Source of the DNA: a virus
Length of the DNA: 64,000 nt
Direction: 5' to 3' (one strand)
Virus record (IMG/VR): IMGVR_UViG_3300042463_001805
Span: 1-64,000 of that record
Positions 1 to 59,473 of the stretch are shown here, piece by piece (position 1 is the stretch's first letter; each line of letters begins with the position of its first letter). The position numbers were made by a program, and so were the translations under genes. The notes under the pieces were generated by a model. That model ran no database searches, had not been told where the DNA came from, and was given only the letters and a program-made list of their open reading frames with translations.

Positions 1-1209
1 ATGAAAAATAGATTTGTCATATCAGAAAATGATAGACGAAGTATTTTGTCTATGTATAATCTAATAAATGAAGATGAGAATAAAACTAGAATTGTAGGTA
101 CAATTCAAGTTGTTCCTACTTATTTTAGAGCGCAAAATATTGAATTAAGTTTATATGGTAACAATCAAGATGATTCGTATGAACCAATAGATGGTCTTGA
201 TATTGAGGATATGGTTTTATTAGGTAAAACAAAAACAAACAATAATGGAAATTATGTTTTTAATAATGTTACTGATTTTGATAATTTATTTATTTCATTT
301 GAAGGAAACGATTTTTATGACTCAATAAATTATAGAGTTGTAAAATTAACCCCGAATAAAGACAATACTGTAGATTTTGATATTAAAAGTAAAAACGGTA
401 AAAAACCAGACGATGAAGAAAAGAAAAAGAAACCAAAAAAAATAAAAAAATGCGAAAAAAAGGAATCGGATAATAATAAATTTTATGGTTATGGTGAATA
501 TATGATTGATGGAGATACTGAAGAAATAATAAAAGGAGAACCATTCAAAAAAAATGTTCAAGGAAAAATGTATCAAGAAGCATCAAAAGTTGCGGTAAAA
601 GACGCGTTATTTGATTACTTGGATTTGTACCCTAATAAGGTTGTTAGTTTTGATACGTTATATAAACATATTTTAAATATAATCGGTACACAAGATCTTA
701 AAAAATTAACAATCACATGTAAAAAAGTTTTTTATGAAAACGGTAAAATAGTGGCAACAACAATAGTTAAATTTAAAAAAACATTTTTAGATCAAGAAAT
801 AAAAAAATTAGAACCTAAAATAATTCCTGTTGTAAGAAAAATTGATTTTGAAGATATTGATTTTCAAAAAGCATTAGAAGATTCTTTTAAGAATAAAAAG
901 AAAATATTTTTATTTTTCTGTACAGATAATCAAGAATGTAATGGTCTATTAAAAAACTTTGTTGAGTTAGGTGATTTAGATAAAAAATTAGGCGGTTGGA
1001 TCAAACTGTATTACAAAGTAGACATGAGTCAAGAAAAAAAATATGTGGTGGCTTCAGAAACACTAAAAGTATTTACATACCCGACTGTTGTCATTTTAGA
1101 AGCCAGCAAAGATCCAACAAAAAACTATATAAAAGATTCGGTACGAATTATTAAAAAAATTACATCATTTGATGAAACAATTTCAGGAATGAGTAATTTA
1201 TTAAACTAA
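1..1209 (+). CDS. Probable head-cargo protein with thioredoxin-like C-terminal domain
   Basis: 402 aa. The N terminus is a short charged amphipathic segment (ISENDRRSIL) ending LINE24 before DE, which fits the [ILV]xE prohead-protease signature shared by many proteins here. Residues 30-125 look like a beta-sandwich of the carboxypeptidase-regulatory type (NNNGNYVFNNV), followed by a Lys/Glu-rich linker near 130-155. Residues about 280-400 resemble a thioredoxin fold: a hydrophobic strand KIFLFFC, then C307 and C313 (a CxxxxxC in place of CxxC), and FTYPTVVIL with the cis-proline position. The altered spacing makes classical disulfide reductase activity doubtful. The start at base 1 is accepted because it gives the shared N-terminal motif. 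Function is unknown; delivery inside the head is inferred. Confidence 0.6.
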   Translation: MKNRFVISENDRRSILSMYNLINEDENKTRIVGTIQVVPTYFRAQNIELSLYGNNQDDSYEPIDGLDIEDMVLLGKTKTNNNGNYVFNNVTDFDNLFISFEGNDFYDSINYRVVKLTPNKDNTVDFDIKSKNGKKPDDEEKKKKPKKIKKCEKKESDNNKFYGYGEYMIDGDTEEIIKGEPFKKNVQGKMYQEASKVAVKDALFDYLDLYPNKVVSFDTLYKHILNIIGTQDLKKLTITCKKVFYENGKIVATTIVKFKKTFLDQEIKKLEPKIIPVVRKIDFEDIDFQKALEDSFKNKKKIFLFFCTDNQECNGLLKNFVELGDLDKKLGGWIKLYYKVDMSQEKKYVVASETLKVFTYPTVVILEASKDPTKNYIKDSVRIIKKITSFDETISGMSNLLN

Positions 1210-1214
1210 TAATA

Positions 1215-1221
1215 TATTTAT
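1215..1221 (+). promoter_or_regulatory. TATTTAT box
   Basis: 13 nt before the ATG of the acidic repeat gene at 1235; followed by an A-rich leader. Confidence 0.5.
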
Positions 1222-1234
1222 AAAAAAAACAATT

Positions 1235-1867
1235 ATGAAAAATTTAAGACAAGAGTTAAATGAAATGAAATTTTTATTTGGATACAAGCCAGGTAAACTA
1301 TTATCTGAACAAAATATACCAACTGAAGAAGAGTACGGTATGGAAGAAATGTATGACATGGAAGAAATGTATGACATGGAAGAAGGAGAATATCCTATGG
1401 AAGAAGATTTTGAAATGGAAGACGATATTTTAATGGCAGATCCTGATGTAATGGAGCCTGAAGTTAAACCTGACACAGATAGGGGCGTTGAGGAAAGACC
1501 ATCTAGACCCGGAAGACCAGATAGAGACCCAAGTAGATTACCATATACCGATCCCGATACACACCCACAAGGAGAATATGAAGATGATTTAATTATGAAA
1601 AAGGGATATGCTGAAAAAAAAGACCGTGATGAGGTTGAATACGAATTAGAAATTGACGATGAACCAAGAAGGTCTAGAGACGAGGTTGAATACGAATTAG
1701 AAATTGATGACGAACCAAGAAGACCAAGACCTATGAGAAGTATGAGTAGAAGAGGGTCTATGGATCGTGAAGAAATGAATGAACCATTTGTTGATGATGT
1801 TGATTCAGAATACGAAAATAGCGATTTAGGAGATTTAGTAAAAAAATATTTAGGTAAAAGACGTTAA
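1235..1867 (+). CDS. Acidic repeat protein with capsid-targeting-like N terminus
   Basis: 210 aa, very acidic. It starts with a helix ending KLLSE25 before QN, a good match to the T4-type prohead cleavage pattern. Residues 30-70 are tandem MEEMYD/YPMEED units, and residues about 125-165 hold two copies of DEVEYELEIDDEPRR. The YGMEE and PMEE units also occur in the scaffold protein at 52048, suggesting a prohead-core or head-internal role for both. A TATTTAT box lies 13 nt before the start. It is followed after 1 nt by the gene at 1869. No enzyme motif is visible. Confidence 0.6.
   Translation: MKNLRQELNEMKFLFGYKPGKLLSEQNIPTEEEYGMEEMYDMEEMYDMEEGEYPMEEDFEMEDDILMADPDVMEPEVKPDTDRGVEERPSRPGRPDRDPSRLPYTDPDTHPQGEYEDDLIMKKGYAEKKDRDEVEYELEIDDEPRRSRDEVEYELEIDDEPRRPRPMRSMSRRGSMDREEMNEPFVDDVDSEYENSDLGDLVKKYLGKRR
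1345..1440 (+). repeat. Coding tandem repeat (MEEMYD units)
   Basis: In-frame 18-nt units GAAGAAATGTATGACATG and degenerate copies in the acidic repeat gene. A longer repeat of about 50 nt lies at 1630-1720. Confidence 0.7.
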
Positions 1868-1868
1868 T

Positions 1869-2867
1869 ATGCGAAGAAATAGGTTGATTTATGAAAGACC
1901 TGTAAGTGATTACTTACCTGATGAATTTAAAAAAGGGGCAAAAGAGGCGAGTAAACGTTTATATGATGACCCAACTAACCCTGCGCCTAGTAGTAATCAA
2001 GTAGGTATGTTAATGATGGGTTTACCAAGAATGGAATCAGGTAAACAACAACAATTAGTTAATCTTGCGTTAGAATCATTTTACGGAATGTATCCACATA
2101 TTAAAAAATTAGTGGATCAAGGTAAAATTATAATGGATGTTCAGTTAGGTAGTGCTGGTGGTAGAATGAAAACTCAAACACCCGCAAGACCTTCAGTAGA
2201 AAAGGCTAAAGAAACTGATCCTGACTTTGATGAAAGAATAAAACAAAGACATTTTATTAACGCTAAGACACAAGGTAAGGCTTGGTTAGACGGTTTTGGT
2301 GCCATCAAGAAGATGAAAAGTAAAATTGAAGCAATTGATCCTAGTTTATATCAAAACTATGACGGATTTGTTAGAGGAGCTTCAAGATTTTATTGGGAAA
2401 ACACCGAAATGTTAGAAAGAATGGCAGCATCAGGAGCTGGTCGTATGGCATATTGTGATGTTTATCCTGACAAATCAAAAAAAGGTGTGTTTGTTATAGA
2501 AGTAAGAGCACCACATCTTCCATTATTAATGCATGAGTTAGTTAAAGGTGCCGAATACTACGATAGTTTATTTTCATTACCTGGTCAGAAAGAAGTTGGT
2601 GATGTTTTAATGGGTATTACTGACGTTCACAAACACGAAATTCAAAATATGAACTACGGTAGGTCTTTGTGGTCAAAAATTCGTTACATCTTAGAAGAAT
2701 TTGTAAGTGGTTATGATAGATCTATGGAAAGTGATCTTACTTTTATGTTAGAAAGTCTTGGACCTAAAGTTTATAATAGATTTATGGATGGTATTGTTAA
2801 AGATGATAACAAAATTATTCAAGAGTTTATTGCCGAGTGTGAAGAATTAGTAAAAGAATTAGATTAA
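1869..2867 (+). CDS. Conserved-looking phage protein of unknown function
   Basis: 332 aa, soluble, mixed helical. The N terminus RRNRLIYE9 could be a very short cleaved leader, but this is weak. Notable stretches are a Gly/Met-rich segment (MLMMGLPRM), an Arg/Lys-rich middle, and LPLLMHELVKG near residue 222. The last resembles a metallopeptidase HExxH helix but lacks the second His, so I do not call a peptidase. It starts 1 nt after the acidic repeat gene and ends 12 nt before the next gene, so the three are probably co-transcribed. Confidence 0.55.
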   Translation: MRRNRLIYERPVSDYLPDEFKKGAKEASKRLYDDPTNPAPSSNQVGMLMMGLPRMESGKQQQLVNLALESFYGMYPHIKKLVDQGKIIMDVQLGSAGGRMKTQTPARPSVEKAKETDPDFDERIKQRHFINAKTQGKAWLDGFGAIKKMKSKIEAIDPSLYQNYDGFVRGASRFYWENTEMLERMAASGAGRMAYCDVYPDKSKKGVFVIEVRAPHLPLLMHELVKGAEYYDSLFSLPGQKEVGDVLMGITDVHKHEIQNMNYGRSLWSKIRYILEEFVSGYDRSMESDLTFMLESLGPKVYNRFMDGIVKDDNKIIQEFIAECEELVKELD

Positions 2868-4856: not shown

Positions 4857-5405
4857 ATGAAAATAGTAATAACTGAGTCTCAATACCAAAAATTGGTTGA
4901 AAATATTGAAATAATTGACGATATTTTAGATAAATTAGGTAAAATTGGGTACGAAAACCTTGAAAATGACGAAAAAATGACCCTAAATAGGTACTCAGAG
5001 TGGTTAAATTCGGGTCAAAAAGGTGAATTTATGGGTGAAATTACCCCTAAAAACACTGATTTTGAGGCCAAAATAGGTGAAATATTCACTACAAATATGA
5101 GTGATGATAGTGAATTAACATTTCAATATGATTACTCGGATATATTAAAACACGAAAACATACATTACGGTACCGTAAAATGGCATGGAGAAGAGTGGAT
5201 AGGTTTAATTGCAACAGATAAAAATGATAAAATAACTGAAATTGATTTTGTTTTAGATCAAGATTTTTATTTAGATAGTGATGTAGAGAGTTTTAGCGAA
5301 TATGACGACAGTAATGAAAAAAGATTACAAGACGAAATAGGTAAAGATTATAAAAGATTAGAATATTTCTTTCAAGAAGACGTAATACCTTATTTAACCG
5401 ATTAA
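4857..5405 (+). CDS. Probable cargo protein with DUF6576-like motif
   Basis: 182 aa. It begins MKIVITESQYQKLVE15, a short amphipathic segment with two [ILV]xE sites. Residues 20-50 (IDDILDKLGKIGYENL) resemble the small helical motif found at the C terminus of Bacteroidetes rhomboid proteins (DUF6576). The remainder is acidic, with a beta-like KWHGEEWIGLIA segment. A TATTTAT box sits only 4 nt before the start. Its end overlaps the convergent PAP2 gene by 12 nt. Function is unknown. Confidence 0.55.
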   Translation: MKIVITESQYQKLVENIEIIDDILDKLGKIGYENLENDEKMTLNRYSEWLNSGQKGEFMGEITPKNTDFEAKIGEIFTTNMSDDSELTFQYDYSDILKHENIHYGTVKWHGEEWIGLIATDKNDKITEIDFVLDQDFYLDSDVESFSEYDDSNEKRLQDEIGKDYKRLEYFFQEDVIPYLTD

Positions 5406-6002
5406 ATTTTCTTTTTTTAAATAATCAAATAGAGATTTTGCCAACTTCTCACCAAATTTTATATCTGATGGGTAATGTGCTTTAGCCATTTGTCTTGAAT
5501 AGACGATATCATCTTTGATTTTTTTTAATTCAGATTTAAATTTTGGGTATTTGTAAGATAAAACTAAATAAAGTAAATTAGATTGTGTTGAATGACCCGA
5601 TGGGTATGCGAAACCTTCCATAGATTTAAGCATTGGATCCGATAATTTTGAATCAATTCTAAAAGGTCTAGGTCTTTTATAAAAATTTTTTAACTCAAGT
5701 ATTATTTCTCTAACGTCAAAAATTAACTTATTTATTAATTTATTTTCTTTTATATTTTTTTCTTTTAAAAAATTAATAAAGTTTTGAGGTATATTATCTT
5801 TTTCTTGTACAAATTTTTTTTTAAGGTCTATACTTTTTAAAAAATTAATTTCTTTTTTTGTTTGTGTACTGTTATTTGATGGTGGATATAAATTTTTAAA
5901 TGGGTAAAGATCAAAATTTTTGAATATATTATTTTTAATGGATTTAGTTTCCTGAATACTCATTAAATTTTTAATCCTATTAATTTCTTCATGTAATAAC
6001 AT
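5394..6002 (-). CDS. PAP2-family phosphatase with capsid-targeting-like N terminus
   Basis: 202 aa. All three PAP2 signatures are present: K105-x6-R112-P113, PSGH137, and S169-R170-x5-H176-x3-D180. This predicts phosphohydrolase activity on a lipid phosphate, undecaprenyl pyrophosphate or a similar substrate. Membrane PAP2 enzymes have several transmembrane helices; here the region around PSGHST is only mildly hydrophobic, as in soluble acid phosphatases. The N terminus (EEINRIKNLMSIQE18) matches the amphipathic helix plus [ILV]xE pattern seen in other genes here and is not a secretion signal. The gene diverges from the Dps-like gene at 6031. Confidence 0.75.
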   Translation of the reverse strand: MLLHEEINRIKNLMSIQETKSIKNNIFKNFDLYPFKNLYPPSNNSTQTKKEINFLKSIDLKKKFVQEKDNIPQNFINFLKEKNIKENKLINKLIFDVREIILELKNFYKRPRPFRIDSKLSDPMLKSMEGFAYPSGHSTQSNLLYLVLSYKYPKFKSELKKIKDDIVYSRQMAKAHYPSDIKFGEKLAKSLFDYLKKENLIG

Positions 6003-6030: not shown

Positions 6031-6456
6031 ATGATAACAAAAAAAGATTTTTTAAATGGAGGCGGTTTAATAGTAGAACAAAAAACCTCTAATAGTGATT
6101 ATGTTGAAATGATTTCATTGTTATTACATTCAAGAACACAGTCACATACACTACATTTACAAACAGAATCATATCCAGAACATATGGCTTTAAATGGGTA
6201 TTATGATGGTATTGGAAACATCATTGACGGATTAGTGGAATCATATCAAGGGAAATATGGTATATTGAAGGGATATAAATCATACCCAATTTCAGAATAT
6301 AAATCTACCGAATCAACAATTAAATATTTAAAAGATTTATGTTCTAAAATAGAGAAATTAAGAAGTTGTTGTAAAGATTCATACATACAAAATCAAATAG
6401 ATACTGCATGTGAATTAATTAATTCAACATTATATAAACTTAGATTTTTAAAATAA
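6031..6456 (+). CDS. Ferritin/Dps-like protein (DUF5856 type), probable head cargo
   Basis: 141 aa. After MITKKDFLNGGGLIVE16, a likely cleavable leader, comes a four-helix-bundle pattern: LLLHSRTQSHTLHLQT, YPEHMALNGYYDGIGNIIDGL, then two Cys-containing helices. The spacing of His and acidic residues (H..H, EHxALxxYYDxI) is that of Dps/ferritin-like folds, as in the DUF5856 family of myoviruses. Iron binding or ferroxidase activity is not certain. A TATTTAT box lies 4 nt before the start. It is followed 7 nt later by the gene at 6464. Confidence 0.6.
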   Translation: MITKKDFLNGGGLIVEQKTSNSDYVEMISLLLHSRTQSHTLHLQTESYPEHMALNGYYDGIGNIIDGLVESYQGKYGILKGYKSYPISEYKSTESTIKYLKDLCSKIEKLRSCCKDSYIQNQIDTACELINSTLYKLRFLK

Positions 6457-6463: not shown

Positions 6464-6871
6464 ATGGCAAAAGAAATTTTAATTAAGGAATCAGATCTTA
6501 TCAGAATGATAAAAAGAATGGTTAGCGAAGTAAAAAAAGAACAAGAAATGAAAGAAGGTCTATTTGGTCCAAATAGAAAAGATTTAGAGTTAAGAAAAAC
6601 TGATCTAATTAGAAAAATAGACGACTTAATGGAAGAGTTAGAATTAACTGATGAAGATTTATATAACTCAATTGATTCGGTAATTAGACAAGCAGAAGAA
6701 CATAACTACGATGGTGAAGTTGATGTTAAACAAGGAAGAACAGGAAGAATTGTATTGATTTTTAGACCAACACCATCTAAATTCCATCAATCAGGATTTT
6801 ATAAAAATGTTGTAAGCCCTATGGTTGGTGGTATGAGGGGCGGTCATACATTTGGTGGAGGAAGAGACTAA
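6464..6871 (+). CDS. Small cargo-type protein
   Basis: 135 aa. The N terminus contains KESDLIRMIKRMVSE22, closely related to the TESDLTRIVRRVINE leader of the paralogs at 38900, 39538 and 40830. The mature part has an acidic helical region (about 45-85), a basic beta-like segment (VDVKQGRTGRIVLIFRP) and a Gly-rich C-terminal tail. No known domain is recognised. The gene ends 22 nt before a strong terminator hairpin. Confidence 0.6.
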   Translation: MAKEILIKESDLIRMIKRMVSEVKKEQEMKEGLFGPNRKDLELRKTDLIRKIDDLMEELELTDEDLYNSIDSVIRQAEEHNYDGEVDVKQGRTGRIVLIFRPTPSKFHQSGFYKNVVSPMVGGMRGGHTFGGGRD

Positions 6872-7232: not shown

Positions 7233-9008
7233 TTAATCTAAACTATTTTTATATTTTTTAAAAAATTCTAAAGGTATTTTTTCGTGACTCAAAGAAGTCT
7301 TAGATAGTATCCCCTTTTCTTCTAAAGATTTTAATCTATCTCTAGTATTTGGATATCCTGTCCAATTGGCGTGATTTGATAAAGATGCGACATTTGAGGG
7401 TAATCCCCCGTTTTTGTATTTTTCATAATGATTTTCTTCAGTAGATGGATCTATTAATCCTATAAATGAATATTGATTACTATTTGAAATAATTTCATCC
7501 CACACATCAATACCACCGGCAGAAAACCCTAATATTTTATTAACTTGATTATTTTTCTTTATGTTTGGTAAATCTGTAGAAGTGTAAGGTAAAAATATAA
7601 CGTCTTTTTCTGATAGACCCGCAGCAACCCATTGAGATTTCATCCATTCTGGCGTTGCATAATCAGTACCACCAAAAACCACCGTTTTTGATGGAAATAC
7701 GTTTTCTTCATCCTCAATATATTCTTGACCACCAATGTAGTATAAATGCCACGGTTCGGCACCTCTAAGAGGTCCTTGAGTTTTATAAGTCACCTCAAAC
7801 CCATAATCTTCACATTTGTTTGCGACCCAATTTTTTACTTTAGGATTTGTATCCCACCACGATGGGTCTGTACTAAATATATCAAAAGCCTTTCCTGTAT
7901 GGTGTTGACTAAACCCTGGTAATGAGTTCCATTTTTGAGTATCATCTATACCCCTAACTTTAGCCTTTGAACCAAAATTGGTGACTTGATCTTCAGGTGG
8001 TGTAGAAATACTTCTATAACCTGATACTATGTTATAAGGATATTTAACTGAGGGGTTTGCTTTTTTACAATCATTTATTAATTGGTTAATTGCTGCTAAC
8101 GCATCTGAATTAACACTGCCGGCATCGTCTCTGGTTTGACCTTCTTGTTTCATTTCACGATCCAAATGTAATTCAGTAATTTCTACACCCCAGTCCGTTT
8201 TTAATTTTTTAATTGCATTTTGTACAGGTATTGGTAATCTATCAAATATTTTAACATTTGAAGATCCTCCACCTGAGTTGTTATAACCACCGCCTGACCC
8301 AATGTCCTCTATATTTTTTTTAAAATTATCTTCCATTCCTGGATTTATAAAAACAATATACTCGTCATCAATTTCTGCCGGATCAGTATCTTTAACTGTT
8401 TTTTTAACTCCATTTTTTTCTTCAAGTCTATCAGTTGCGTTTGGTGGGTAATATTCAAAATGTTCGTGGGGACCTGTTGATGGTTGGGTATTACCTACCT
8501 CTTGGAAAATGGATCCCGCAGGTATTATGTCCCCTTCATTAAAAAAAACTTTACTGTAATGACAATGTTTAGTTTTGGATCCGTCGTCATGTTCTATAGT
8601 AAAACATAATGGTCCTATTTTACCCATTTTGCCTGATTTAAGTATGGCCATTGGTGTGCCAAAAGGCGCACCATAATCTCTTCCTGCGTGCCAGTGCCAA
8701 TTACAATATCTTGGTTTTCCTTGTGCACATAAACTAGCGATAGGCCCCCTCCACCCATATTTATTACCTCTTCTTACGGATGCTAACGTTATGTACGATG
8801 GGTTTAATTTACTAACATTTATTTGATTTGCAGACCCCTTACCAATCTCACTTGGACTAATATATCTAACAAATTCTCCTTTATCTCCAAATTCTACAGC
8901 ACCTATTACATCTCCGGTCTTTTCACCTGTTGGTAAAAAAGTATTTTTTCTGTATAAACCTTGCTCAGAAATTTGATTTTTAAGTATATCTAATAATTTG
9001 ATTGACAT
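7233..9008 (-). CDS. Three-domain cell-wall hydrolase: M23 endopeptidase, VanY-type M15 carboxypeptidase, alpha/beta hydrolase
   Basis: 591 aa from ATG 9008. This start is preferred because it gives the leader SIKLLDILKNQISE15 and the TATTTAT boxes at 9014-9024 then fall upstream of it. Residues about 80-195 are an M23 (LytM) fold with HAGRD (H107, D111) and HEH (H181, H183). Residues about 320-425 are an M15B D,D-carboxypeptidase with SxHxxGxAxD (H369, D376) and EPWH (E418, H421). Residues about 440-591 carry GFSAGG (nucleophile S496), LIDP and SHEK, an apparent Ser-Asp-His alpha/beta hydrolase. A Gly/Ser-rich linker (about 238-250) separates the first two. Together they could cut peptide cross-links, trim stem peptides and attack an ester. 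Confidence 0.82.
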   Translation of the reverse strand: MSIKLLDILKNQISEQGLYRKNTFLPTGEKTGDVIGAVEFGDKGEFVRYISPSEIGKGSANQINVSKLNPSYITLASVRRGNKYGWRGPIASLCAQGKPRYCNWHWHAGRDYGAPFGTPMAILKSGKMGKIGPLCFTIEHDDGSKTKHCHYSKVFFNEGDIIPAGSIFQEVGNTQPSTGPHEHFEYYPPNATDRLEEKNGVKKTVKDTDPAEIDDEYIVFINPGMEDNFKKNIEDIGSGGGYNNSGGGSSNVKIFDRLPIPVQNAIKKLKTDWGVEITELHLDREMKQEGQTRDDAGSVNSDALAAINQLINDCKKANPSVKYPYNIVSGYRSISTPPEDQVTNFGSKAKVRGIDDTQKWNSLPGFSQHHTGKAFDIFSTDPSWWDTNPKVKNWVANKCEDYGFEVTYKTQGPLRGAEPWHLYYIGGQEYIEDEENVFPSKTVVFGGTDYATPEWMKSQWVAAGLSEKDVIFLPYTSTDLPNIKKNNQVNKILGFSAGGIDVWDEIISNSNQYSFIGLIDPSTEENHYEKYKNGGLPSNVASLSNHANWTGYPNTRDRLKSLEEKGILSKTSLSHEKIPLEFFKKYKNSLD

Positions 9009-9706: not shown

Positions 9707-9712
9707 ATTATT

Positions 9713-43053: not shown

Positions 43054-43077
43054 TTTGCAAAATACAAAAAAACAATA

Positions 43078-43084
43078 TATTTAT
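43078..43084 (+). promoter_or_regulatory. TATTTAT box
   Basis: 66 nt before ATG 43151, heading the terminase/portal operon; the longest leader seen. Confidence 0.45.
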
Positions 43085-44557: not shown

Positions 44558-44967
44558 TTTTAGTATATGTAAACGAATTAGGACCAAACTATAAAGGAGA
44601 TAATATATATGAATTTATATTTTCAGACTTGGATGATGTTTGGGGTGAAGATTGGGATGCCGAACCAGCATCAGGAAAACCGTTACCGCCTAATTTTGAT
44701 TACATAAAAAAAGTTGGGGTTTTAAAAAATTCAGAAATTGATTTAAACTTAATTCAAAACTCTGATTTTTTTGGTGTTTATGATGCAATTGACGGTGTCA
44801 TATCTTTAGCTTGGGAAAGATCAGATAGTGATGAAATTTTAATACACAAAAGAAAAAGATTAGTTTTTCAATACGGAGATACCGTAGAAACAGTAGAAAA
44901 TAAATTATACGAAAGAGACATCGTATTAAAATGGGAAAAAAACTTAGTTCAAGATGAAACATATTAA
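44554..44967 (+). CDS. Unknown small protein upstream of terminase
   Basis: 137 aa. Acidic, with WGEDWDAEPASGKPLPPNFDY and FFGVYDAIDGVISLAWER. Translationally coupled on both sides: ATGA overlap with the preceding gene and a 14-nt overlap with the next. No known domain; many T4-like phages have a similar-sized gene here. Confidence 0.55.
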   Translation: MILVYVNELGPNYKGDNIYEFIFSDLDDVWGEDWDAEPASGKPLPPNFDYIKKVGVLKNSEIDLNLIQNSDFFGVYDAIDGVISLAWERSDSDEILIHKRKRLVFQYGDTVETVENKLYERDIVLKWEKNLVQDETY

Positions 44968-45556
44968 TCCTAAAATAGCAATCCTTTTACATGAAGGATT
45001 TTCAATTTCAACTTTAGAAAAAATGTCTAACGACCAACTTAATTTACTTTATAGTAAAGTAGTAAAAGAACAAACAGTTCCCCCAAACAAAACAGAGACA
45101 GTAACTGCAACTAAAACAACCGTACCACAGGGTGGAAATGCGACAGTTGCAGCAGGTTCTAAAGTTGAGGTTCAGGGAAATAGCGCTATTATAACAACAA
45201 CCGAAACCGAATTAGGTGAAGAAGAAAAGGTTGGTAAAAATAAAGAGGTTAAAGAAAAGGCAATGTCAAAAAAACAACAACAATTTTTTGGTATTGTAAG
45301 AGGAATGCAAAAAGGAGATACACCAAAAAAAGGTAAAGCCGGAAAAGTGGCTAAAGATATTGATCCTGAAGATGCCGAAGATTTTGCTAAAACAAAACAT
45401 AAGGGATTACCGACAAGAAAAACAAACAAAAAATCAGATTCAAAAGAAGATGTTAAAAAATTAGAAGAAGGAATAATGAGATTGATTGAAAGTCATTTAC
45501 CTCCACACACAACAAAAGGTGAATTATTATACGCAATCAGAAGAAACAAAAGATAA
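44954..45556 (+). CDS. Lys-rich protein directly upstream of the large terminase
   Basis: 200 aa. N-terminal helix (EKMSNDQLNLLYSKVVKE39 before QTVP), a Thr/Val-rich linker, then MSKKQQQFFGIVRGMQKGD and DPEDAEDFAKTKHKGLP, short motifs I have seen in small proteins of T4-like phages, and a basic C terminus. Position immediately before the large terminase raises the possibility of a small terminase or DNA-binding role, but the usual small-terminase coiled-coil domain is not evident. The next gene starts 3 nt after its stop. Confidence 0.5.
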   Translation: MKHINPKIAILLHEGFSISTLEKMSNDQLNLLYSKVVKEQTVPPNKTETVTATKTTVPQGGNATVAAGSKVEVQGNSAIITTTETELGEEEKVGKNKEVKEKAMSKKQQQFFGIVRGMQKGDTPKKGKAGKVAKDIDPEDAEDFAKTKHKGLPTRKTNKKSDSKEDVKKLEEGIMRLIESHLPPHTTKGELLYAIRRNKR

Positions 45557-47382: not shown

Positions 47383-49200
47383 ATGGCACAAGAAAAATAT
47401 ACAGTTTGGCAGAGGTTGGGTAAGGTTTTTGGACCTAACGCAACTTTAGATCAACAGGCACCAGTATTTAAATTTGATAAAAAAGAATTATTAAAAACTA
47501 CAGATAAAAAAGAATTTGAGATTGAAAAGTTACAAGCTCAACAATCATTATATATTGGGCAACAATGGCAAAAAGTTGAAAGTAACCTGTACCAACAAGC
47601 GGTCTATTACGAACCAACAAGAATGGCGTCGTACTATGATTACGAATCAATGGAATATACTCCTGAAATTTCAGCGGCTTTAGACATTTATGCGGAAGAA
47701 TCAACAACGCCAGATCAAGACGGATTAATATTAAAAGTTTATTCTGAATCAAAAAGAATAAAACAAGTTTTAACGGATCTTTTTACAAACAAATTGGATA
47801 TAAATACTAACTTACCTATGTGGACAAGAAATACATGTAAGTTTGGTGATAATTTTGTGTATCTAAAATTGGATCCCGAAAAAGGGATAGTTGGGTGTCA
47901 GCAATTACCAAATATTCAAATTGAAAGATTAGAAAAAGGTATGAGATTTCAACCAGACAAATATTCTCAAGAAATGGAGAACGATGCACTTAAATTTGTT
48001 TGGAAAGAAAAAAACATGGAATTTAACACTTGGGAAGTTGGTCATTTTAGAATTTTAGGTGACGATAGAAAACTTCCTTACGGTACATCTATGTTAGAAA
48101 AAGCAAGACGTATTTGGAAACAACTACTATTATGTGAAGACGCTATGTTAATTTATCGTGTATCAAGAGCACCCGAAAGAAGAGTATTTAAAGTGTTTGT
48201 TGGTAACATGGACGATAAAGATGTTGATGCATATGTACAAAAAGTGGCAAATAAATTCAAAAGAGATCAAATTGTAGATTCAAAAACAGGTAACGTTGAT
48301 ATGAGATACAATCAAATGGCGGTTGATCAAGACTTCTTTATCCCTGTACGTGACGCTTCGGCACCTGAACCCGTAACAACATTGGCGGGAGCATCAAACT
48401 TAGCTGAAATTGCAGATATTGAATATATTCAAAAGAAACTTGTTACTGCACTTAGAATACCAAAGGCTTATTTAGGTTTTGAAGAAGCTGTTGGTGATGG
48501 TAAAAACTTATCATTATTAGACATAAGATTTGCTAGAACAATTAATAGAATTCAAAAATCTATGATTGCAGAATTAAATAAAATAGCAATTATTCATTTA
48601 TTTTTATTAGGGTTTGAAGACGAATTAACGAACTTTACTTTATCATTGAATAATCCGTCTAAACAAGGAGAACTATTATCTTTAGAAATTTGGAAAGAAA
48701 AAATTACATTATATAAAGACGCAACTGCTGAGATTGCAAAATCATTAGCACCTGTTTCTGCTTCTTGGGCTAAAAAACACATATTAGGATTTTCCGATGA
48801 AGAAATTAGATTGGACATCCAACAACAAAGAGTTGAACGTGCGGTTTATGCTGAATTAGAAAAAACTGCAGAAGTTATCACTAAAACAGGTTTATTTGAT
48901 AATATTGATAAATTATACGGTAAAAAAGAAGGTGAAGCAGCTGGAGCAGCTGGAGGTGATGCCGCGGCAGGTGGAGCACCACCGGCAGGAGGAGACATGG
49001 GTGGAGGAGCACCTCCGCCACCACCACCATCAGGCGGTGCGGAAGGAGGAGGCGTCACTCCCGAAAGATTTGTAAGAAATGACTTAGATTTAATTTTGGA
49101 AGAGACGTTATTTAACGAATCAAATAATTTAGATTTATCAAAAGGTAGAAATTCTTTAGTGGAAATTGATCAAAAATTAAAAAATTTGATTGATAAGTAA
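47383..49200 (+). CDS. Portal protein (T4 gp20-like)
   Basis: 605 aa. Order and sequence match T4-type portals: ALDIYAEESTTPD, the IGxQ/REDM-like region around GTSMLEKARRIWKQL, the motif YRVSRAPERRVFKVFVGN, MRYNQMAVDQDFFIPVR, and IPKAYLGFEEA, then helical wing and crown. The C-terminal region (about 520-565) is a Gly/Ala/Pro-rich extension (GGAPPAGGDMGGG) followed by RNDLDLILEETLF, which is unusual. It forms the dodecameric DNA-entry ring on which the prohead is built. Confidence 0.93.
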   Translation: MAQEKYTVWQRLGKVFGPNATLDQQAPVFKFDKKELLKTTDKKEFEIEKLQAQQSLYIGQQWQKVESNLYQQAVYYEPTRMASYYDYESMEYTPEISAALDIYAEESTTPDQDGLILKVYSESKRIKQVLTDLFTNKLDINTNLPMWTRNTCKFGDNFVYLKLDPEKGIVGCQQLPNIQIERLEKGMRFQPDKYSQEMENDALKFVWKEKNMEFNTWEVGHFRILGDDRKLPYGTSMLEKARRIWKQLLLCEDAMLIYRVSRAPERRVFKVFVGNMDDKDVDAYVQKVANKFKRDQIVDSKTGNVDMRYNQMAVDQDFFIPVRDASAPEPVTTLAGASNLAEIADIEYIQKKLVTALRIPKAYLGFEEAVGDGKNLSLLDIRFARTINRIQKSMIAELNKIAIIHLFLLGFEDELTNFTLSLNNPSKQGELLSLEIWKEKITLYKDATAEIAKSLAPVSASWAKKHILGFSDEEIRLDIQQQRVERAVYAELEKTAEVITKTGLFDNIDKLYGKKEGEAAGAAGGDAAAGGAPPAGGDMGGGAPPPPPPSGGAEGGGVTPERFVRNDLDLILEETLFNESNNLDLSKGRNSLVEIDQKLKNLIDK

Positions 49201-50969: not shown

Positions 50970-51674
50970 ATGAAAATATTAGGACCTAAAGATACGGGTA
51001 AAGGAATACTTGTTGAGTGGGATGCTGGAATCATTAACCCAAATGAGTATAGAAACAGTCAAGTTTTAAAAGAATCGTATGGCCAACTAGACCACTCAAA
51101 ACCATTTGTTTTTTACGCTACTTTACAAAAATATGGAGTACCAAATAGAAATGGTAGAATTTATCCTGAAAAAATATTAAAAAGAGAAACTGAAAAGTAT
51201 AAAGAGATGATCAATAGAGGGATGTCTATTTCTGAACTTAATCACCCAGAATCTTCTCTGATTGATTTAGATAGAGTTGCTCACCTTATTACTGATGTGT
51301 GGTGGGAAGATAACGTATTGATGGGTAAAATTAAATTATTGACAACACCAGGATTTCATGAAAGAGGGATTGTTTCATCAAAAGGTGACATTGCGGCAAA
51401 CATGATGAGACAAGGTGTGACTATGGGTGTTTCTTCTCGTGGTGTAGGATCTTTAGTAAAAAAAGGAGAACAAAATGAAGTGCAGGATGATTTTGAATTA
51501 ATTTGTTTTGATTTGGTTTCTTCACCATCAACACCTGGTGCATATCTTTACCTTAATAAAGAAGATAGACCTAAATACGAAGAAAATTTAACAGAGCATC
51601 AAGAAATAGAATCAAATCCTTTGAGTAAATCTGTTGACTTAATGAAAAGATTATCCGATTATTTGGATAAATAA
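50970..51674 (+). CDS. Prohead core protease (T4 gp21-like)
   Basis: 234 aa. Motifs of the S78/gp21 herpesvirus-like serine protease fold: SELNHPE with catalytic His92, MGVSSRG with Ser155 or 156, and a conserved acidic position around DLVSSPSTPGA (Asp181). In T4 this enzyme cleaves head proteins after (I/L)xE during maturation and is packaged in the prohead with scaffold. It lies between portal and scaffold/capsid genes in T4 order, with a TATTTAT box 13 nt upstream. Predicted substrates here are the capsid protein, scaffold, and the many leader-bearing cargo proteins. Confidence 0.92.
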   Translation: MKILGPKDTGKGILVEWDAGIINPNEYRNSQVLKESYGQLDHSKPFVFYATLQKYGVPNRNGRIYPEKILKRETEKYKEMINRGMSISELNHPESSLIDLDRVAHLITDVWWEDNVLMGKIKLLTTPGFHERGIVSSKGDIAANMMRQGVTMGVSSRGVGSLVKKGEQNEVQDDFELICFDLVSSPSTPGAYLYLNKEDRPKYEENLTEHQEIESNPLSKSVDLMKRLSDYLDK

Positions 51675-51950: not shown

Positions 51951-52006
51951 ATTTTTTAGTTTTTTCATTATAACACAAAAAAATAAGTTTTTTTCAAACA
52001 TCTACA

Positions 52007-52013
52007 TATTTAT
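52007..52013 (+). promoter_or_regulatory. TATTTAT box
   Basis: 34 nt before the scaffold ATG at 52048, downstream of a terminator. Confidence 0.5.
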
Positions 52014-52047: not shown

Positions 52048-53688
52048 ATGAGTATGAATGAAAAATCGGTAGTAGAAGACGCTTTATTACAAATTAAGGC
52101 GGTTGAAAATGCTATCAGTGAAAATGCAAAAGGAATACTTGCTTCTACTATGAAGGAAGAAATCAGTGAATTAGTAAGGGAATCTCTTGGAGGTTCAAAA
52201 AAAAGAAGTCTACGTGAACAAGAAGAACAAGGCCAAGAAGTTGGTGTAGAAGACGAAGAAGTAGACGTAGAAGAACCTGTTGATGGTATGGAAGGTGAGG
52301 AAGTTGTTGTTGATGACGAAACGGAAGTTGTTGATGATGGTGAAGAATTACCTGTAGAACCTGAAATGGGAGATAATCTAGGCGGTGAATTACCACCATT
52401 AGATATGACGCAATCATCAATTGGTGACGTAATCAAAGTTTTTAAATTAATGGGTGACGAAGATGGTATTATTGTTAAAAAAGACGAAAAAGGTATCCAT
52501 TTATCTGACCCAAAAAATGAAACAGAATATCTAATACAAATGGATGGTGACACCGAAAATCCACAAAATATGATGGAAAATTCAATGATAGATGCAATTA
52601 GATCAGTCAGACCAAATCAATATGAAAATTATGGATCTGAATTTAATGAGCAAGAAGAAACCGGTTTCGGGTACGATGAGTATGGTGATGAGGGTGAAGA
52701 CTACAGTGATTCTTATTTTGATGAATTAGAAGAAGAGTACGGTATGGAAGAACAAGATTTTCCTATGGAAGAGTACGGTATGGAAGAACAAGATTTTCCT
52801 ATGGAAGAGTATGGTATGGAAGAACAAGATTTTCCTATGGAAGAACAAGATTTTCCTATGGAAGAACAAGATTTTCCTATGGAAGAGTACGGTATGGAGG
52901 AAAACGTTTACGAGATAGATCAAGAAGCTCTTGAGTCTGTTTTGGAATCTTTTAAAGCTAAAGGACTTGGAATGGGTAAACCAGGTAATGGTTTCTCAAA
53001 AATGTCAGTTAACGATAAAGGTTTCAAAGAAGATAGAAAAAGTGGAGGTAAAGGTTTAACAGGTAAAGGTCCTAAATTCAAATATCCTAAAATCAAACAC
53101 GGAGTAACTGAAAATGAATTTGAAGAAGAAGAATTCAATGAGTGGGAAGACGAAACAAACGAAGAATTAATTGATACTAAAGAACAACCGGAAACTACTG
53201 AAGCCTCAAGAACTTTAGGTAATGGTAAATATTGGGGTAGAAAAGGTTTACCTAAACCAAGAACCGCACCTAGACACCTTAGAGTAGAATCAGTAAACGG
53301 AGAGTTAAACTTGTTGAGAGAAAAAAATGAAGAATACAAAAAAGCGTTAGATTTCTTTAGAACAAAACTTAATGAAGTTGCGGTATTTAATTCTAACTTA
53401 GCGTATTCTACACGTTTGTTTACAGAACACTCAACAACAAAACAAGAAAAGATTAATATTCTTAGAAGATTTGACTCAGTTGAATCATTAAAAGAATCTA
53501 AAAATCTTTACCAATCAATCAAAAGAGAACTTGACGGAAAAGGTACTCAACCTGTGGTTACTGAATCAATTCAGAGAAAAGTAACTAAAACTCCACAATC
53601 AGGATCAGCAACAAATTTGATTGAAAGTAAAACTTATGAAAATCCACAATTTATGAGAATTAAGGATTTAATGACAAAAATAAACTAA
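52048..53688 (+). CDS. Prohead scaffold/core protein (gp22-like) with acidic repeats
   Basis: 546 aa. N-terminal helix, then a very acidic region and about five tandem units of MEEYGMEEQDFP (about residues 230-288). A basic Gly/Lys-rich segment (KGLTGKGPKFKYPK) and a C-terminal helical coiled-coil-like domain (about 415-500: LREKNEEYKKALDFFRTKLNEVA) follow. Position between protease and capsid genes is that of T4 gene 22. Several [ILV]xE sites (AISE, LVRE, SLRE, FNE) would allow destruction by the protease. Assignment rests on context and composition. Confidence 0.75.
   Translation: MSMNEKSVVEDALLQIKAVENAISENAKGILASTMKEEISELVRESLGGSKKRSLREQEEQGQEVGVEDEEVDVEEPVDGMEGEEVVVDDETEVVDDGEELPVEPEMGDNLGGELPPLDMTQSSIGDVIKVFKLMGDEDGIIVKKDEKGIHLSDPKNETEYLIQMDGDTENPQNMMENSMIDAIRSVRPNQYENYGSEFNEQEETGFGYDEYGDEGEDYSDSYFDELEEEYGMEEQDFPMEEYGMEEQDFPMEEYGMEEQDFPMEEQDFPMEEQDFPMEEYGMEENVYEIDQEALESVLESFKAKGLGMGKPGNGFSKMSVNDKGFKEDRKSGGKGLTGKGPKFKYPKIKHGVTENEFEEEEFNEWEDETNEELIDTKEQPETTEASRTLGNGKYWGRKGLPKPRTAPRHLRVESVNGELNLLREKNEEYKKALDFFRTKLNEVAVFNSNLAYSTRLFTEHSTTKQEKINILRRFDSVESLKESKNLYQSIKRELDGKGTQPVVTESIQRKVTKTPQSGSATNLIESKTYENPQFMRIKDLMTKIN
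52735..52905 (+). repeat. Coding tandem repeat (MEEYGMEEQDFP units)
   Basis: Near-identical in-frame units of 36 and 21 nt in the scaffold gene; near identity suggests recent copy-number change. Confidence 0.75.
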
Positions 53689-53714
53689 AAAATAAACTTT
53701 TTTAAAAAACTGTA

Positions 53715-53721
53715 TATTTAT
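53715..53721 (+). promoter_or_regulatory. TATTTAT box of the capsid gene
   Basis: 44 nt before ATG 53766, followed by an A-rich leader without Shine-Dalgarno. Confidence 0.55.
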
Positions 53722-53765: not shown

Positions 53766-55574
53766 ATGGGAGCATTATTAGAATCAGGTCTTGTTGGTAA
53801 CATCGGTCTTAAGCACTTGAAAGTTATCAAAGAAGATACAATTAACAAATGGGATAGATTAGGATTCCTAGACGGTCTTAAAGGACACGTTAAAGAGAAC
53901 ATGGCACAATTATATGAAAACCAAGCGTCTCACCTAATTAACGAAGCAGCATCTACTGACAGTTCAGGTTCATTTGAAACTGTAGTATTTCCTATCGTTA
54001 GAAGAGTATTCTCTAAATTATTAGCAAATGATTTAGTATCTGTACAAGCAATGAACTTACCAATCGGTAAATTGTTCTACTTTGTACCTAAAATTCAAGG
54101 TTATAACTCAGCTGATACCGCTGCAGGAACAAACCACTTCGCACCAATTGGTTCGGCAAACTATAACGCGGCTGATGGTACAGGTTATGATGGTGCTGAC
54201 GCTTACGCTAAAAATCTTTATGATTTATTTTATGAAGGTGCTGAGGCGGCATTAGATCCTCCAGGATTATTTGACTATTCTAAAGGTACATGGACTGCAG
54301 TTACAGCAACTACAACAATCCAAGTTTGGTCAAATGGATCATTAGTTGATTCATTGGCTCCAACAGGTGTTCAAAGAAAACTTCTTGTTAAAATGTGTGG
54401 TTTTTATGATAATGGTGTTGGTAAATTAATCGGACCTGATGGATCAGAGGTTGATAGTGAGACTTTCTTGTCTGACTTAAAAATTATCAGATCAACAGGT
54501 TTGAGTATTGCTGAAGGTAGTGCTTGTTCTGTTCCTACAGCAACTCCATTGTTGTTTAGAGTCGTTACTCAACAATACGGTAAAGGTATTGTTTCTCCTA
54601 CATATACACAAACACCAACAACATTCCCTAACGGAAATGGTGGATCTTATGATCAAGTTTGTGATCAAAACGGATGTATCTATTTAGAAGTTGATCTTTC
54701 TTGTCCTGTATGTGCTGATTGTAACGCATCATCTTTAGATGGTTATACAGGAGCAACAATCACTTCAGGTTCTTCGGGTACTTCTTTTGTAGCTGTATTT
54801 AGAAGATATGCTGAATTAGAATTTGAAGATAAAATTGGTGAAGTATCTTTTGACCTTGAGTCAGTTACTGTATCAGTTACAGAAAGAAAACTAAGAGCAC
54901 AATGGTCACCTGAATTAGCACAAGACGTTTCTGCATTCCATAACATTGACGCTGAGGCTGAATTAACAGCATTATTGTCTGAGCAAGTGGCAGCAGAAAT
55001 TGATAGAGAAATCTTGAGAGACCTTAGAAAAGGTGCAGCTTGGAACCTAAGATGGGATTACAACGGATGGAGAAGAATTCCAGGAAACATGACTTATACT
55101 CAAAAAGATTGGAATCAAACTTTGATCACAGCAATTAACCAATTGTCAGCACAAATCCACAAATCTACATTGAGAGGTGGGGCTAACTGGATTGTTGTAT
55201 CTTCTGAAGTTTCTGCTATCTTTGATGACCTAGAGTACTTCCACGTATCTAACGCTTCTCCGGAGCAAGATCAGTACAACATGGGTATTGAAAGAGTTGG
55301 TACATTAGCAGGTCGTTACCAAGTGTATAGAGATCCATACTTCCCAGCTAACCAAATCCTTATTGGACACAAAGGTTCATCTTTGTTAGATACAGGATAT
55401 GTTTACGCTCCGTATGTACCTCTACAATTAACACCTACAATGTATAACCCATTCAACTTTACACCTATCAAAGGTATCATGACCAGATACGCTAAGAAAA
55501 TGGTTAACAACCGTTTCTATGGTAGAATCACAGTTGATGGAGTTAGAACATTTGACTTACAAGAATTGAGATAA
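53766..55574 (+). CDS. Major capsid protein (T4 gp23-like)
   Basis: 602 aa. FPIVRRVFSKLLANDLVSVQAMN and LPIGKLFYFVPK near residues 75-110 are hallmarks of gp23-type HK97-fold capsid proteins, as are VSVTERKLRAQWSPELAQD and the C-terminal MTRYAKKMVNNRFYG. A delta-peptide-like N terminus ends INE60 before A61, matching the T4 prohead cleavage rule (E65 in gp23). An insertion with a cysteine cluster (SCPVCADCNAS, about residue 317) is unusual and could be a surface domain. The A-rich leader before ATG is as in highly expressed Flavobacteriia genes. Strong terminator after the gene. Confidence 0.95.
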   Translation: MGALLESGLVGNIGLKHLKVIKEDTINKWDRLGFLDGLKGHVKENMAQLYENQASHLINEAASTDSSGSFETVVFPIVRRVFSKLLANDLVSVQAMNLPIGKLFYFVPKIQGYNSADTAAGTNHFAPIGSANYNAADGTGYDGADAYAKNLYDLFYEGAEAALDPPGLFDYSKGTWTAVTATTTIQVWSNGSLVDSLAPTGVQRKLLVKMCGFYDNGVGKLIGPDGSEVDSETFLSDLKIIRSTGLSIAEGSACSVPTATPLLFRVVTQQYGKGIVSPTYTQTPTTFPNGNGGSYDQVCDQNGCIYLEVDLSCPVCADCNASSLDGYTGATITSGSSGTSFVAVFRRYAELEFEDKIGEVSFDLESVTVSVTERKLRAQWSPELAQDVSAFHNIDAEAELTALLSEQVAAEIDREILRDLRKGAAWNLRWDYNGWRRIPGNMTYTQKDWNQTLITAINQLSAQIHKSTLRGGANWIVVSSEVSAIFDDLEYFHVSNASPEQDQYNMGIERVGTLAGRYQVYRDPYFPANQILIGHKGSSLLDTGYVYAPYVPLQLTPTMYNPFNFTPIKGIMTRYAKKMVNNRFYGRITVDGVRTFDLQELR

Positions 55575-58305: not shown

Positions 58306-58307
58306 GA

Positions 58308-58314
58308 TATTTAT
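58308..58314 (+). promoter_or_regulatory. TATTTAT box
   Basis: 8 nt before ATG 58323. Confidence 0.5.
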
Positions 58315-58322
58315 ATTAAGTT

Positions 58323-59033
58323 ATGAATATTAATTTAATTGTTAAAAACATATTGAAAGAGGCAAATTCTGACAGATATGCAGGTTATTATAATGGACCA
58401 TTAACAATGGGTGAAATTGATTGGGAAAAATCCTCTTTAGGTCCTTTTACAAATAAAGTTTCAAAATTTTTTAATGCTGAGCTAGAGTATGATAGTTATG
58501 ATGGTTCTTTGGACTCACATAAAAAAGATAGAAAAAAATTAGAAACAAAATCTCGTAAAATTTCTAAATACAATAAAAAACATCCTCAAGCAAATGATGA
58601 AGATGGTGGAATTATTAATCAAACACCAGGTAAAGGTAAAAGAATTGTTCCTGTTAATGAATGGGTTGAATTAGATAAAATACCATTAAATGAAGATTTA
58701 GCCGTTTGGTTTGGAAAAAAGAAAAAGCCAAAAGGATCGTCACAACCAAAAGGGCCGTGGGTGGATATATGTAGAAAAGTTGATGGTAAACATCCTCCTT
58801 GTGGTAGAAGTGACACTAGTAAAGGTGCGTATCCTAAATGTAGAGCCGCTGGTGTTGCTGGCAAAATGTCTGATTCACAAAAAAGATCTGCATGTCAACA
58901 AAAAAGAAGAGCGGAGAAAAAAGATACTCAGTCAGGTAAGGGGCAAAAACCTGTAATGACCTCTTATAAAACAAAAAAGACTCAAAAAGAGTCTTTAGAT
59001 ATCATTGTAAGAAATATTTTATCAGGTCTTTAA
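58323..59033 (+). CDS. Cargo-type protein with DUF5872-like Cys/Lys region
   Basis: 236 aa. Short leader MNINLIVKNILKE13 before ANSD, similar in form to the T4 IPIII capsid-targeting sequence. C-terminal part (about 140-205: WVDICRKVDGKHPPCGR, YPKCRAAGVAGKMS) resembles DUF5872-type basic Cys motifs in large phages and viruses. It ends with a second leader-like helix LDIIVRNILSGL. TATTTAT box 8 nt upstream. Overlaps the convergent gene at 59030 by 4 nt. A DNA-binding internal head protein is plausible. Confidence 0.6.
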   Translation: MNINLIVKNILKEANSDRYAGYYNGPLTMGEIDWEKSSLGPFTNKVSKFFNAELEYDSYDGSLDSHKKDRKKLETKSRKISKYNKKHPQANDEDGGIINQTPGKGKRIVPVNEWVELDKIPLNEDLAVWFGKKKKPKGSSQPKGPWVDICRKVDGKHPPCGRSDTSKGAYPKCRAAGVAGKMSDSQKRSACQQKRRAEKKDTQSGKGQKPVMTSYKTKKTQKESLDIIVRNILSGL

Positions 59034-59473
59034 CAATATGGTGGTGAACATCTTCTTTTACCGTCCAGTCCTTTAATTTTTCCTTTACAAACTTGTACAC
59101 CGTGACCATTACTATATGCACTTGGAAATACATCATATCTTGATTTAGCCGCCGCTTTACCTCTAGCACATAATTTAGTTCCCGTTTTTTTACGACCTTC
59201 TTCAATCATATCTTCTTCATAATCACTACCACCTTCCATTTCATTTTTTAAAAAATCAAAAACTTGGTCCATATTATTTTTAGCTTCAGAGATATGGTCT
59301 TGGGCCCAATCATGTCCGTTTTCTAAAATAGACTCAATTTCATCTTGATCCATATCCAATAACATTTCACACTGTCTCTTCATTTGTTCAAGATTTGAAA
59401 AGAACATATATCTACTTGAATGTTTTTTTTCTTCTTCTCTTAATACTCTTTTTATTATTCTACTGATATTCAT
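59030..59473 (-). CDS. Cargo-type protein with LCARGKAAAKSRY motif
   Basis: 147 aa. Leader MNISRIIKRVLRE13 before EEKK. Helical middle, then TKLCARGKAAAKSRYDVFPSA and VQVCKGKIKGLDGKRRC, a basic Cys-containing motif common in small proteins of large phages and related to DUF5872. The leader resembles that of the facing gene at 58323. Starts 3 nt after the gene at 59477 ends, so it is at the end of the minus-strand virion operon. Confidence 0.6.
   Translation of the reverse strand: MNISRIIKRVLREEEKKHSSRYMFFSNLEQMKRQCEMLLDMDQDEIESILENGHDWAQDHISEAKNNMDQVFDFLKNEMEGGSDYEEDMIEEGRKKTGTKLCARGKAAAKSRYDVFPSAYSNGHGVQVCKGKIKGLDGKRRCSPPYC

Follow-up and report, generated by a model that had tools for sequence, protein, structure and literature searches.

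Short N-terminal leaders shared by unrelated proteins of bS21-encoding freshwater Bacteroidetes phages: a candidate T4-style capsid-targeting system with a large modular cargo

The window studied here, bases 1-64000 of the 97,376-base virus record IMGVR_UViG_3300042463_001805 (31% GC), raises the question of why so many of its otherwise unrelated proteins begin with a short amphipathic helix ending in [ILV]xE. An earlier reading of the letters alone (the sequence-only reading) named 19 such genes and four less clear ones, and proposed that the helix directs its passengers into the phage head, as the capsid-targeting sequence (CTS) of T4 does. By comparing the window genome with seven relatives (records of 49 to 296 kb, eight genomes in all, genes called mechanically), a similar view is reached: with a probability of about 0.8, the leaders are a T4-style capsid-targeting system with leaders of its own, which has expanded to a large modular cargo set in this group of phages.

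The leaders are short amphipathic N-terminal helices carried by many unrelated proteins, and they fall into three related classes: T (LTESDLxRIVxRVIxE; profile form [IRL][ILM][TS]E[SE][DEQ]L..I...), E (EIxRIxxLM...IxE; profile form EI.R[IM]..LM) and N (NIIKKVLxE; profile form.II[KR][KR]VL.E). Crude regular expressions matched 278/1201 N-termini but also 96 C-terminal, 71 internal and 120 shuffled sequences, and because of these high backgrounds they were replaced by ungapped profiles built from N-termini; the T and N profiles include the site Glu, whereas the E profile does not. When profiles from all eight genomes, which thus score data they were trained on, are applied at the stringent cut, class T is found at 142/1353 N-termini versus 2/1353 C-termini, 1/989 internal segments, 3/1353 shuffled and 0/1353 reversed sequences. 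Similarly, class E is found at 116 of the 1353 N-termini (controls: 10 C-termini, 0 internal, 0 shuffled, 2 reversed), and class N at 126 of them (5, 2, 4 and 4, respectively; stringent cut 13, 1% cut 9.0). In the held-out version, the profiles were trained on the seven relatives only and applied to the 100 window-record proteins of at least 70 amino acids at a 0.2% threshold in at least one of the three classes. Here, 19/100 proteins match, against 2/100 C-termini, 0/95 internal segments and 2/100 reversed N-termini, and the match at 74000-74629 is probably false. The held-out profiles recover 16 of the 19 main genes (not 6031, 7233 and 58323), which shows that the shared leader is real.

The distribution of the leaders was then followed with the full profiles. 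They match 0/502 proteins on 38 Bacteroidota-titled contigs (one of them an unassigned metagenome-assembled genome), so that an equal frequency of the motif in host proteins, which the sequence-only reading had named as telling against it, is excluded; on 42 contigs of other bacteria, 2/597 proteins match. In T4, none of the 80 proteins in two stretches that include IPI, IPII, IPIII and Alt matches. The same is true of 50 kb each of Cellulophaga phi38:1 (0/66 proteins), the huge phage LR756511 (0/70), HTVC008M (0/50) and P-SSM2 (0/44), and the whole genome of Flavobacterium phage immuto gives 1/194. In the 484-kb uncultured phage LR756508, 13/63 proteins match in the 50 kb around the capsid gene (150-200 kb); its T leaders have a form of their own (MKLTERKLRNLVKEVLKES and similar sequences). 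The three largest relatives (229-296 kb) carry leaders on 29/203, 44/306 and 49/265 proteins of at least 90 amino acids, matches in mostly leaderless families having been dropped. Across the comparison, 173/609 protein families contain at least one profile match, and 146 representatives remain after removal of mostly leaderless families and of proteins cut by stretch ends. A tblastn search of cultured phages with a 26-residue leader gave one weak match (E = 4), in a mode that is insensitive for such short queries. In the open-access PMC literature, no description of these leaders was recognised, and none of five leader strings searched there was found.

If the leader is cut off in the manner of T4, a protease site should close it. 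For class E, whose profile leaves the Glu outside although the test segment opens two residues before the profile end, [ILVM]xE occurs in the 18-residue segment at the helix end in 91/107 proteins (500 shuffles: mean 41, maximum 54), and about 30 residues downstream in only 29/107. The stricter site [ILVM][SNKTRQ]E[QNGADSE] is present in 60/107, versus a shuffle maximum of 19 and 11 further downstream. A DNA-pattern scan of IMG/VR for the T core TExDL[AST]RIVxRV, which does not include the site Glu, gave at least 118 stretches, of which 80 loci were kept; in these, 101/101 matches have an in-frame ATG at most 20 codons upstream and [ILVM]xE just downstream. The sequence-only reading had also claimed a gp21-like protease and the same kind of site in the capsid protein, and both claims are borne out. 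A Peptidase_S77 (T4 gp21-like) prohead protease gene lies at 50970..51674 (+; E 2.4e-23), and the major capsid protein gp23 (53766..55574, +, by family match) begins with a propeptide (53766..53945, +) with a predicted cut at LINE|A near residue 60. At least 599 relatives of the capsid protein were confirmed in IMG/VR, and the best 80 were kept for counts; all of these 80 bear LINE|A, which aligns with FLTE|A at 65 of T4. A cut at FLTE|A would agree with the length of the mature T4 chain in the PDB, 456 residues. The cleavage rule of T4 gp21 is given as L/I-X-E in the part of PMC9026906 that treats it.

Further evidence comes from passengers that exchange their leaders. In the 59030 protein, the body is conserved (RYMFFSNLEQM) whereas the start varies, with an N leader in most relatives and a T leader in 7/49 distinct starts. 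In spite of this exchange, [ILVM]xE is present in 49/49 distinct N-termini (79/80 loci; shuffle maximum 41/49), and in an alignment of 42 orthologs (the window protein and 41 of 55 distinct relatives) the site (P1) Glu is the sole invariant residue within the first 20. An AlphaFold model of this protein (mean pLDDT 63, pTM 0.40) has a helix at 3-14, a break and then the passenger helices, and lends weak support. In the 58323 family, the site is found in 22/22 distinct starts (shuffle maximum 15; 41/80 loci unusable). Similarly, the leader of a DHH protein differs between two genomes, being of class T in the first and N-like in the second, and in each it closes with Glu ahead of SGIR. In the PG-binding (12979) family, a tandem N leader in one member corresponds to an E leader in a member from another genome, with LNE or LKE preceding QxISLPI. 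A HAD-like protein (by eye) bears a leader in one genome and starts near its domain in a second, and the DUF5856 family contains leaderless homologs starting near the domain as well as leader-bearing ones mostly ending in xEQ. These observations support the view that the leader behaves as a modular tag on unrelated proteins, the same passenger having different leaders, or none, in relatives. Helices of the E and N types also stand at the extreme C-termini of some proteins in four of the genomes (G001, G003, G004 and G006), and orthologs have comparable ends, which suggests that the helix itself is the address. In the window, a tag-like helix (ESLDIIVRNILSGL; 58989..59030, +; by inspection) ends the 58323-59033 protein, and at L003:7352-7813 (-) an E-type helix forms the extreme C-terminus (SINEEINRINKLIKITQ), with similar ends in four family members. 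Nearby, L003:6664-7062 (-) encodes a small conserved protein beginning MKLLDSLKYVISE|AAS; relatives such as MKLYNITKSLILE|MAS appear much like the T4 leader MKTYQEFIAE|AS.

The leader genes also share an upstream motif with structural genes. Among genes preceded by 40 or more free bases, GGTATATTTATaaa lies a median of 26 bases before the start of 51/90 leader genes versus 61/365 other genes and 8/455 shuffled sequences; the motif was trained on leader genes only. It is likewise found at 16/31 structural genes (scaffold candidate, capsid, portal, terminase, protease, sheath, tube and gp25-like) versus 45/334 remaining genes (Fisher test against other genes: p = 5e-16 for leader genes, p = 2.5e-6 for structural genes). 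TAnnTTTG, which we take to be the host-type promoter consensus, has the opposite pattern (structural 0/31, leader 6/90, others 68/334). The GGTATATTTATaaa motif, unlike TAnnTTTG, looks like a late promoter of this phage group, and because the leader genes share it with the structural genes they appear to be expressed late, like head genes. In the window, the late-type core ATATTTAT stands before the capsid gene (53714..53721, score 12.7), and corresponding promoter-like motifs stand before the scaffold candidate (52006..52013, 13.6), leader genes 1235 (1214..1221, 15.7), 33829 (33803..33810, 15.1), 38900 (38873..38880, 14.4) and 40830 (40787..40794, 11.9), and gene 43151 (43077..43084, 16.1), all on the plus strand. 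The motif was also seen upstream of window gene 55726. Many of the motif-less window genes closely follow another gene.

In the window, the leaders extend over 9-39 residues up to the predicted site. Held-out class T matches are those of genes 1-1209 (leader 1..72, +, predicted cut after LINE at residue 24, score 14.1), 4857-5405 (4857..4901, +, LVE at 15, 20.7), 6464-6871 (6464..6529, +, VSE at 22, 22.2), 15164-18205 (15164..15250, +, ITE at 29, 18.2) and 25227-27692 (25227..25298, +, LKE at 24, 12.5), together with three paralogs at 38900 (38900..38965, +, INE at 22, 26.2), 39538 (39538..39603, +, INE at 22, 27.9) and 40830 (40830..40895, +, LNE at 22, 27.5). Class E is represented by genes 1235-1867 (1235..1309, +, LLSE at 25, 14.6), 5394-6002, a PAP2 phosphatase-like gene (5949..6002, -, IQE at 18, 19.0), 12979-14532, a PG_binding_1 gene (12979..13032, +, 14.8), 14855-15154 (14855..14902, +, 17.6), 18212-21529 (18212..18289, +, IKE at 26, 13.6), 21612-24314 (21612..21689, +, LNE at 26, 14.6) and 33829-35562 (33829..33915, +, LSE at 29, 19.6), and class N by gene 59030-59473 (59435..59473, -, LRE at 13, 17.2).

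Three main genes escape the held-out profiles. These are the DUF5856 gene 6031-6456 (6031..6078, +, predicted cut after IVE at 16, then Q), the M23 + VanY gene 7233 (8964..9008, -, ISE at 15; N 11.4 with the all-eight profiles, between the 1% and stringent cuts) and gene 58323-59033 (58323..58361, +, LKE at 13; N 17.8 with the all-eight profiles). Orthologs are clear for 58323 and mixed for 6031, while 7233 rests on inspection, as do 1869 and 31573 of the less clear genes. Gene coordinates and N-termini are otherwise as the sequence-only reading described them, except that the start of 7233 is most likely the minus-strand ATG at 9008 and that 31573 is an internal ATG of ORF 31408-32769. Of its four less clear genes, two are recovered by the held-out profiles: 43151-44557 (leader-like N-terminus 43151..43219, +, E 13.1), whose family has [IM]xE at residue 23 in 8/8 genomes with a further site at 37 in the window gene, and 44954-45556 (44954..45070, +, T 13.6), whose family of six members has no site column common to more than half. 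The other two are not recovered. Gene 1869-2867 may start with the short leader MRRNRLIYE (1869..1895, +), and 6/7 family members in other genomes have leaders of differing length that end in E before AP[IV]; a possible short leader MLKKKFIFE lies at 31573..31599 (+), and two members of that family begin MKKRLLVE and MKKRRKLFE.

The head genes of the window are of T4 type. In addition to the protease and capsid genes, family matches place the large terminase at 45560..47344 (+) and the gp20 portal at 47383..49200 (+), and a scaffold or core candidate is assigned by its position between the protease and capsid genes (52048..53688, +). It has no Pfam or PHROG match, and the 77/77 candidate genes found end in a form of R[MI][KR]DLM. 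The idea that the leaders are copies of this C-terminus was rejected, with a median profile score of -3.6 bits and a chance expectation of about 0.8 segments per such stretch. No phiKZ-type head gene is among the head genes identified (gp20, gp21 and gp23 being T4-type), although no search was aimed at phiKZ genes. Leader families 43151, 58323 and 59030, the three that are kept most widely, lie at most 15 kb from the capsid gene in 8/8 genomes and have profile matches in 7, 6 and 8 of 8 members, respectively. An S77 protease is present in 12/12 contigs picked by the capsid protein and in 9/12 large contigs picked by the leader pattern; the other three large T-leader contigs lack S77, gp23, the portal and the window's capsid protein. 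These were considered as a break in the link between leader and protease, and this was set aside for two of them, which probably stop short of the head module: their PhoH genes are at distances of 10 kb and 4 kb from the contig end, oriented such that the head module would fall beyond it, and the distance from PhoH to the head module is about 15 kb in the window genome. The third contig (109 kb) lacks PhoH too.

A bS21 ribosomal protein gene, recognised by eye and by the position described for it in PMC9723584, lies between portal and prohead protease (50206-50394, -). The bS21-encoding freshwater Bacteroidetes phages of Chen et al. 2022 have genomes of 293-331 kb with 31-34% GC and, in the parts of that paper that concern gene order, the same terminase, portal, prohead protease and capsid genes around a reverse-strand bS21; they differ in that neither its abstract nor its Results refer to leaders or to packaged cargo (PMC9723584). 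Based on the bS21 gene set, the GC content and the relatives of 229-296 kb, the window is placed with these phages. Stretch L002:6613-18000 (-) holds, by eye, glycosyltransferases, sugar epimerases and methyltransferases adjoining structural genes, and a similar arrangement is noted in places for the bS21 phages (PMC9723584). Sec-type signal peptides were seen by eye at the protein starts of window genes 9113-10861, 35559-36155 (-), 40219-40704 (-), 41463-41936 (-) and 55726-58305, and this second, apparently exported protein set is interspersed among the leader genes.

The cargo itself varies more than the rest of the genome. Homologs in other genomes are found for 12/22, 15/29, 17/44 and 18/49 leader genes in four genomes, compared with 61/73, 136/174, 167/262 and 155/216 of the remaining genes, respectively. 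Pfam and PHROG scans took in 113 of the 146 representatives. Among these, 28 Pfam families match, PG_binding_1 leading with four members among the 25 listed, and families with a single member include VanY, phage lysozyme, SET, PAP2, M78 and DHH; the PHROG matches include several endolysin families. Some of these matches, including DnaJ and clamp loader/AAA, may come from proteins wrongly called leader-bearing. The phosphatase and wall hydrolases that the sequence-only reading saw among the passengers are firm (PAP2, VanY + M23 and PG_binding_1, as is DUF5856). Its kinase-like and zincin passengers are weak: the 18212 protein gives E = 8e-4, below the Pfam cut-off, PADLOC PD-T4-6 at E = 9e-6 and a further weak kinase match at E 0.0014, and the zincin rests on a single HEMTH motif at residue 753 of the same protein. 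The 6031 family corresponds to a starvation-inducible regulator in PHROGs, PADLOC gives only weak matches on cargo (best E 6e-6), and the 12979 protein has no PDB sequence match. In a search that finds close relatives only, 18212, 33829 and 39538 have nothing but 100% copies, in 1, 1 and 3 contigs; the 33829 protein has a distant relative in one of the compared genomes (G001). IMGVR_UViG_3300042301_004325 (L314, L315 and L625) holds 100% copies of cargo genes with almost no other close relatives in the collection. By eye, the large leader-bearing proteins of 15164-18205 and 21612-24314 contain membrane-like hydrophobic stretches, which would suit insertion into the host envelope.

On the reading that we prefer, a capsid-targeting system, the amphipathic helix would dock the cargo on the prohead core or inner shell during head assembly, together with other late proteins. 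The S77 protease would cut after [ILV]xE, by the same rule as at LINE|A of the capsid protein, and so free the cargo inside the head before DNA packaging. The helix would thus be an exchangeable module on a large, fast-changing set of proteins, which includes peptidoglycan hydrolases, a phosphatase and many orphans. Docking, cutting and packaging are inferred from the sequences; that the cargo enters the host with the DNA is probable, delivery and an effector role being the least certain steps. A broader form of the idea has about even odds. It takes the helix for a general address tag, such that any gene gaining one of a few interchangeable helices at its start, or possibly at its end, becomes head cargo that is released by the protease and delivered; about one gene in six or seven would be committed to a payload that changes faster than the rest of the genome, and copy number or position in the core may depend on the leader class.

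Several results weigh against the capsid-targeting interpretation. It is known here from the genomes of uncultured phages only, and the leaders do not resemble the T4 leader MKTYQEFIAE. In three of the four genomes used for the conservation counts, leader proteins have a smaller mean length, and this alone lowers the chance of detecting homologs and contributes to their lower conservation. The scaffold candidate is poor in [LI]xE (1.5 versus 6.0 per 100 amino acids in T4 gp22), and its C-terminus does not match the leaders. Of the 22 listed window genes for which upstream sequence is available, only 5 have the promoter-like motif directly in front. The ortholog-column test is weak and no more than suggestive: 80% or more of the members share a site column in 5/8 leader families versus 10/39 leaderless ones, and in segments further on the values are 4/15 and 16/67. 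In the DUF5856 family, the site occurs in 27/34 distinct starts and is not above shuffles (mean 21, maximum 28; 31/80 loci unusable), because leaderless homologs are included. Profile matches are absent from the 58323 family in 2/8 genomes and from the 43151 family in 1/8. To our knowledge, a relative of T4 would not usually carry peptidoglycan hydrolases in its head.

Other explanations of the leaders were weighed on the same evidence. They could be uncut docking peptides for a structural hub (core, inner shell, neck or tail), with [ILV]xE marking the helix end only. Amphipathic helices often have a Glu near their end, helices of the same pattern stand at some extreme C-termini, where removal is not obviously needed, and three tape-measure PHROG families, with one member each among the 113 proteins, would point to the tail and so also count against head targeting. 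However, the site is kept when the helix is swapped for another class (59030, DHH and PG-binding), its Glu is the one invariant residue at the start of the 59030 orthologs, the stricter site reaches three times its shuffle maximum and the same rule holds at the capsid site, so docking without a cut appears unlikely. Slightly more doubtful is a fate outside the head, in which the leaders would mark proteins for a phage-induced compartment, a membrane, a chaperone or a protease in the infected cell. Such a fate would suit the several cargo proteins that look like enzymes (DHH, PAP2 and SET) and have no known head role, but it leaves aside the promoter-like motif shared with head and tail genes, the closeness of the 43151, 58323 and 59030 families to the capsid gene and a site that fits the head protease.

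Finally, the leaders could be a by-product of recent gene duplication or of a DNA or RNA element at gene starts rather than a protein signal. The three 38900-type genes of the window are indeed paralogs, and a few leader pairs are recent copies, those of G003 235132 and 235706 being identical in DNA. Over 261 leader pairs, identical leader residues share their codon at a frequency of 0.60, somewhat above the 0.50 expected; about 40% of codons still differ where 50% is expected, which implies that the peptide rather than the DNA is kept. Given also the many families spanned by the passengers, this explanation is hardly credible.

If the capsid-targeting reading is right, leader and [ILV]xE together would predict the head-packaged proteins of a large uncultured phage group from sequence, and would explain the many orphan proteins with common first ~25 residues in these genomes. 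They would also give candidate host-takeover and counter-defence proteins, mostly unannotated, and new leaders for loading proteins into phage heads, and the T4 CTS, known from four T4 proteins, would become a widespread modular delivery system.

Among known systems, the phiKZ-type giants SPN3US and phiKZ are alike in their large genomes and in several head proteins with propeptides, inner-body and ejection proteins being cut by the prohead protease, as set out in parts of PMC5694885 and PMC10052503. They differ in that several SPN3US propeptides exceed 100 residues (according to sections of PMC5694885), longer than any window leader, and those parts of the two reports describe no single shared exchangeable leader. 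The Dar system of phage P1 (DarA, DarB and Hdf) likewise packages antirestriction proteins in the head; DarB has an N-terminal signal, and DarA is cut by the prohead protease Pro. It comprises few proteins, about 9 kDa is removed from DarA, and the relevant parts of PMC9024508 and PMC12810830 describe no shared short leader. The closest likeness is to T4, in which IPI, IPII, IPIII and Alt bear a CTS cut by gp21. In both, otherwise unrelated proteins begin with a short leader that ends in xE, and the phage encodes an S77 protease and a gp23 capsid protein with the same kind of site. One passage of PMC9026906 regards the CTS as a possible route for T4-like phages to take up various proteins. The comparison made in the sequence-only reading thus holds for the way the leaders would work, but membership of the same family as the T4 internal protein leaders is not supported, since 0/80 T4 proteins match the profiles. 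Compared with T4, the window group has several leader classes and similar helices at some C-termini, the share of proteins with a leader is 14 to 18.5% in three large relatives, as against four named proteins in T4, and its cargo reaches 1105 amino acids and includes enzyme domains.

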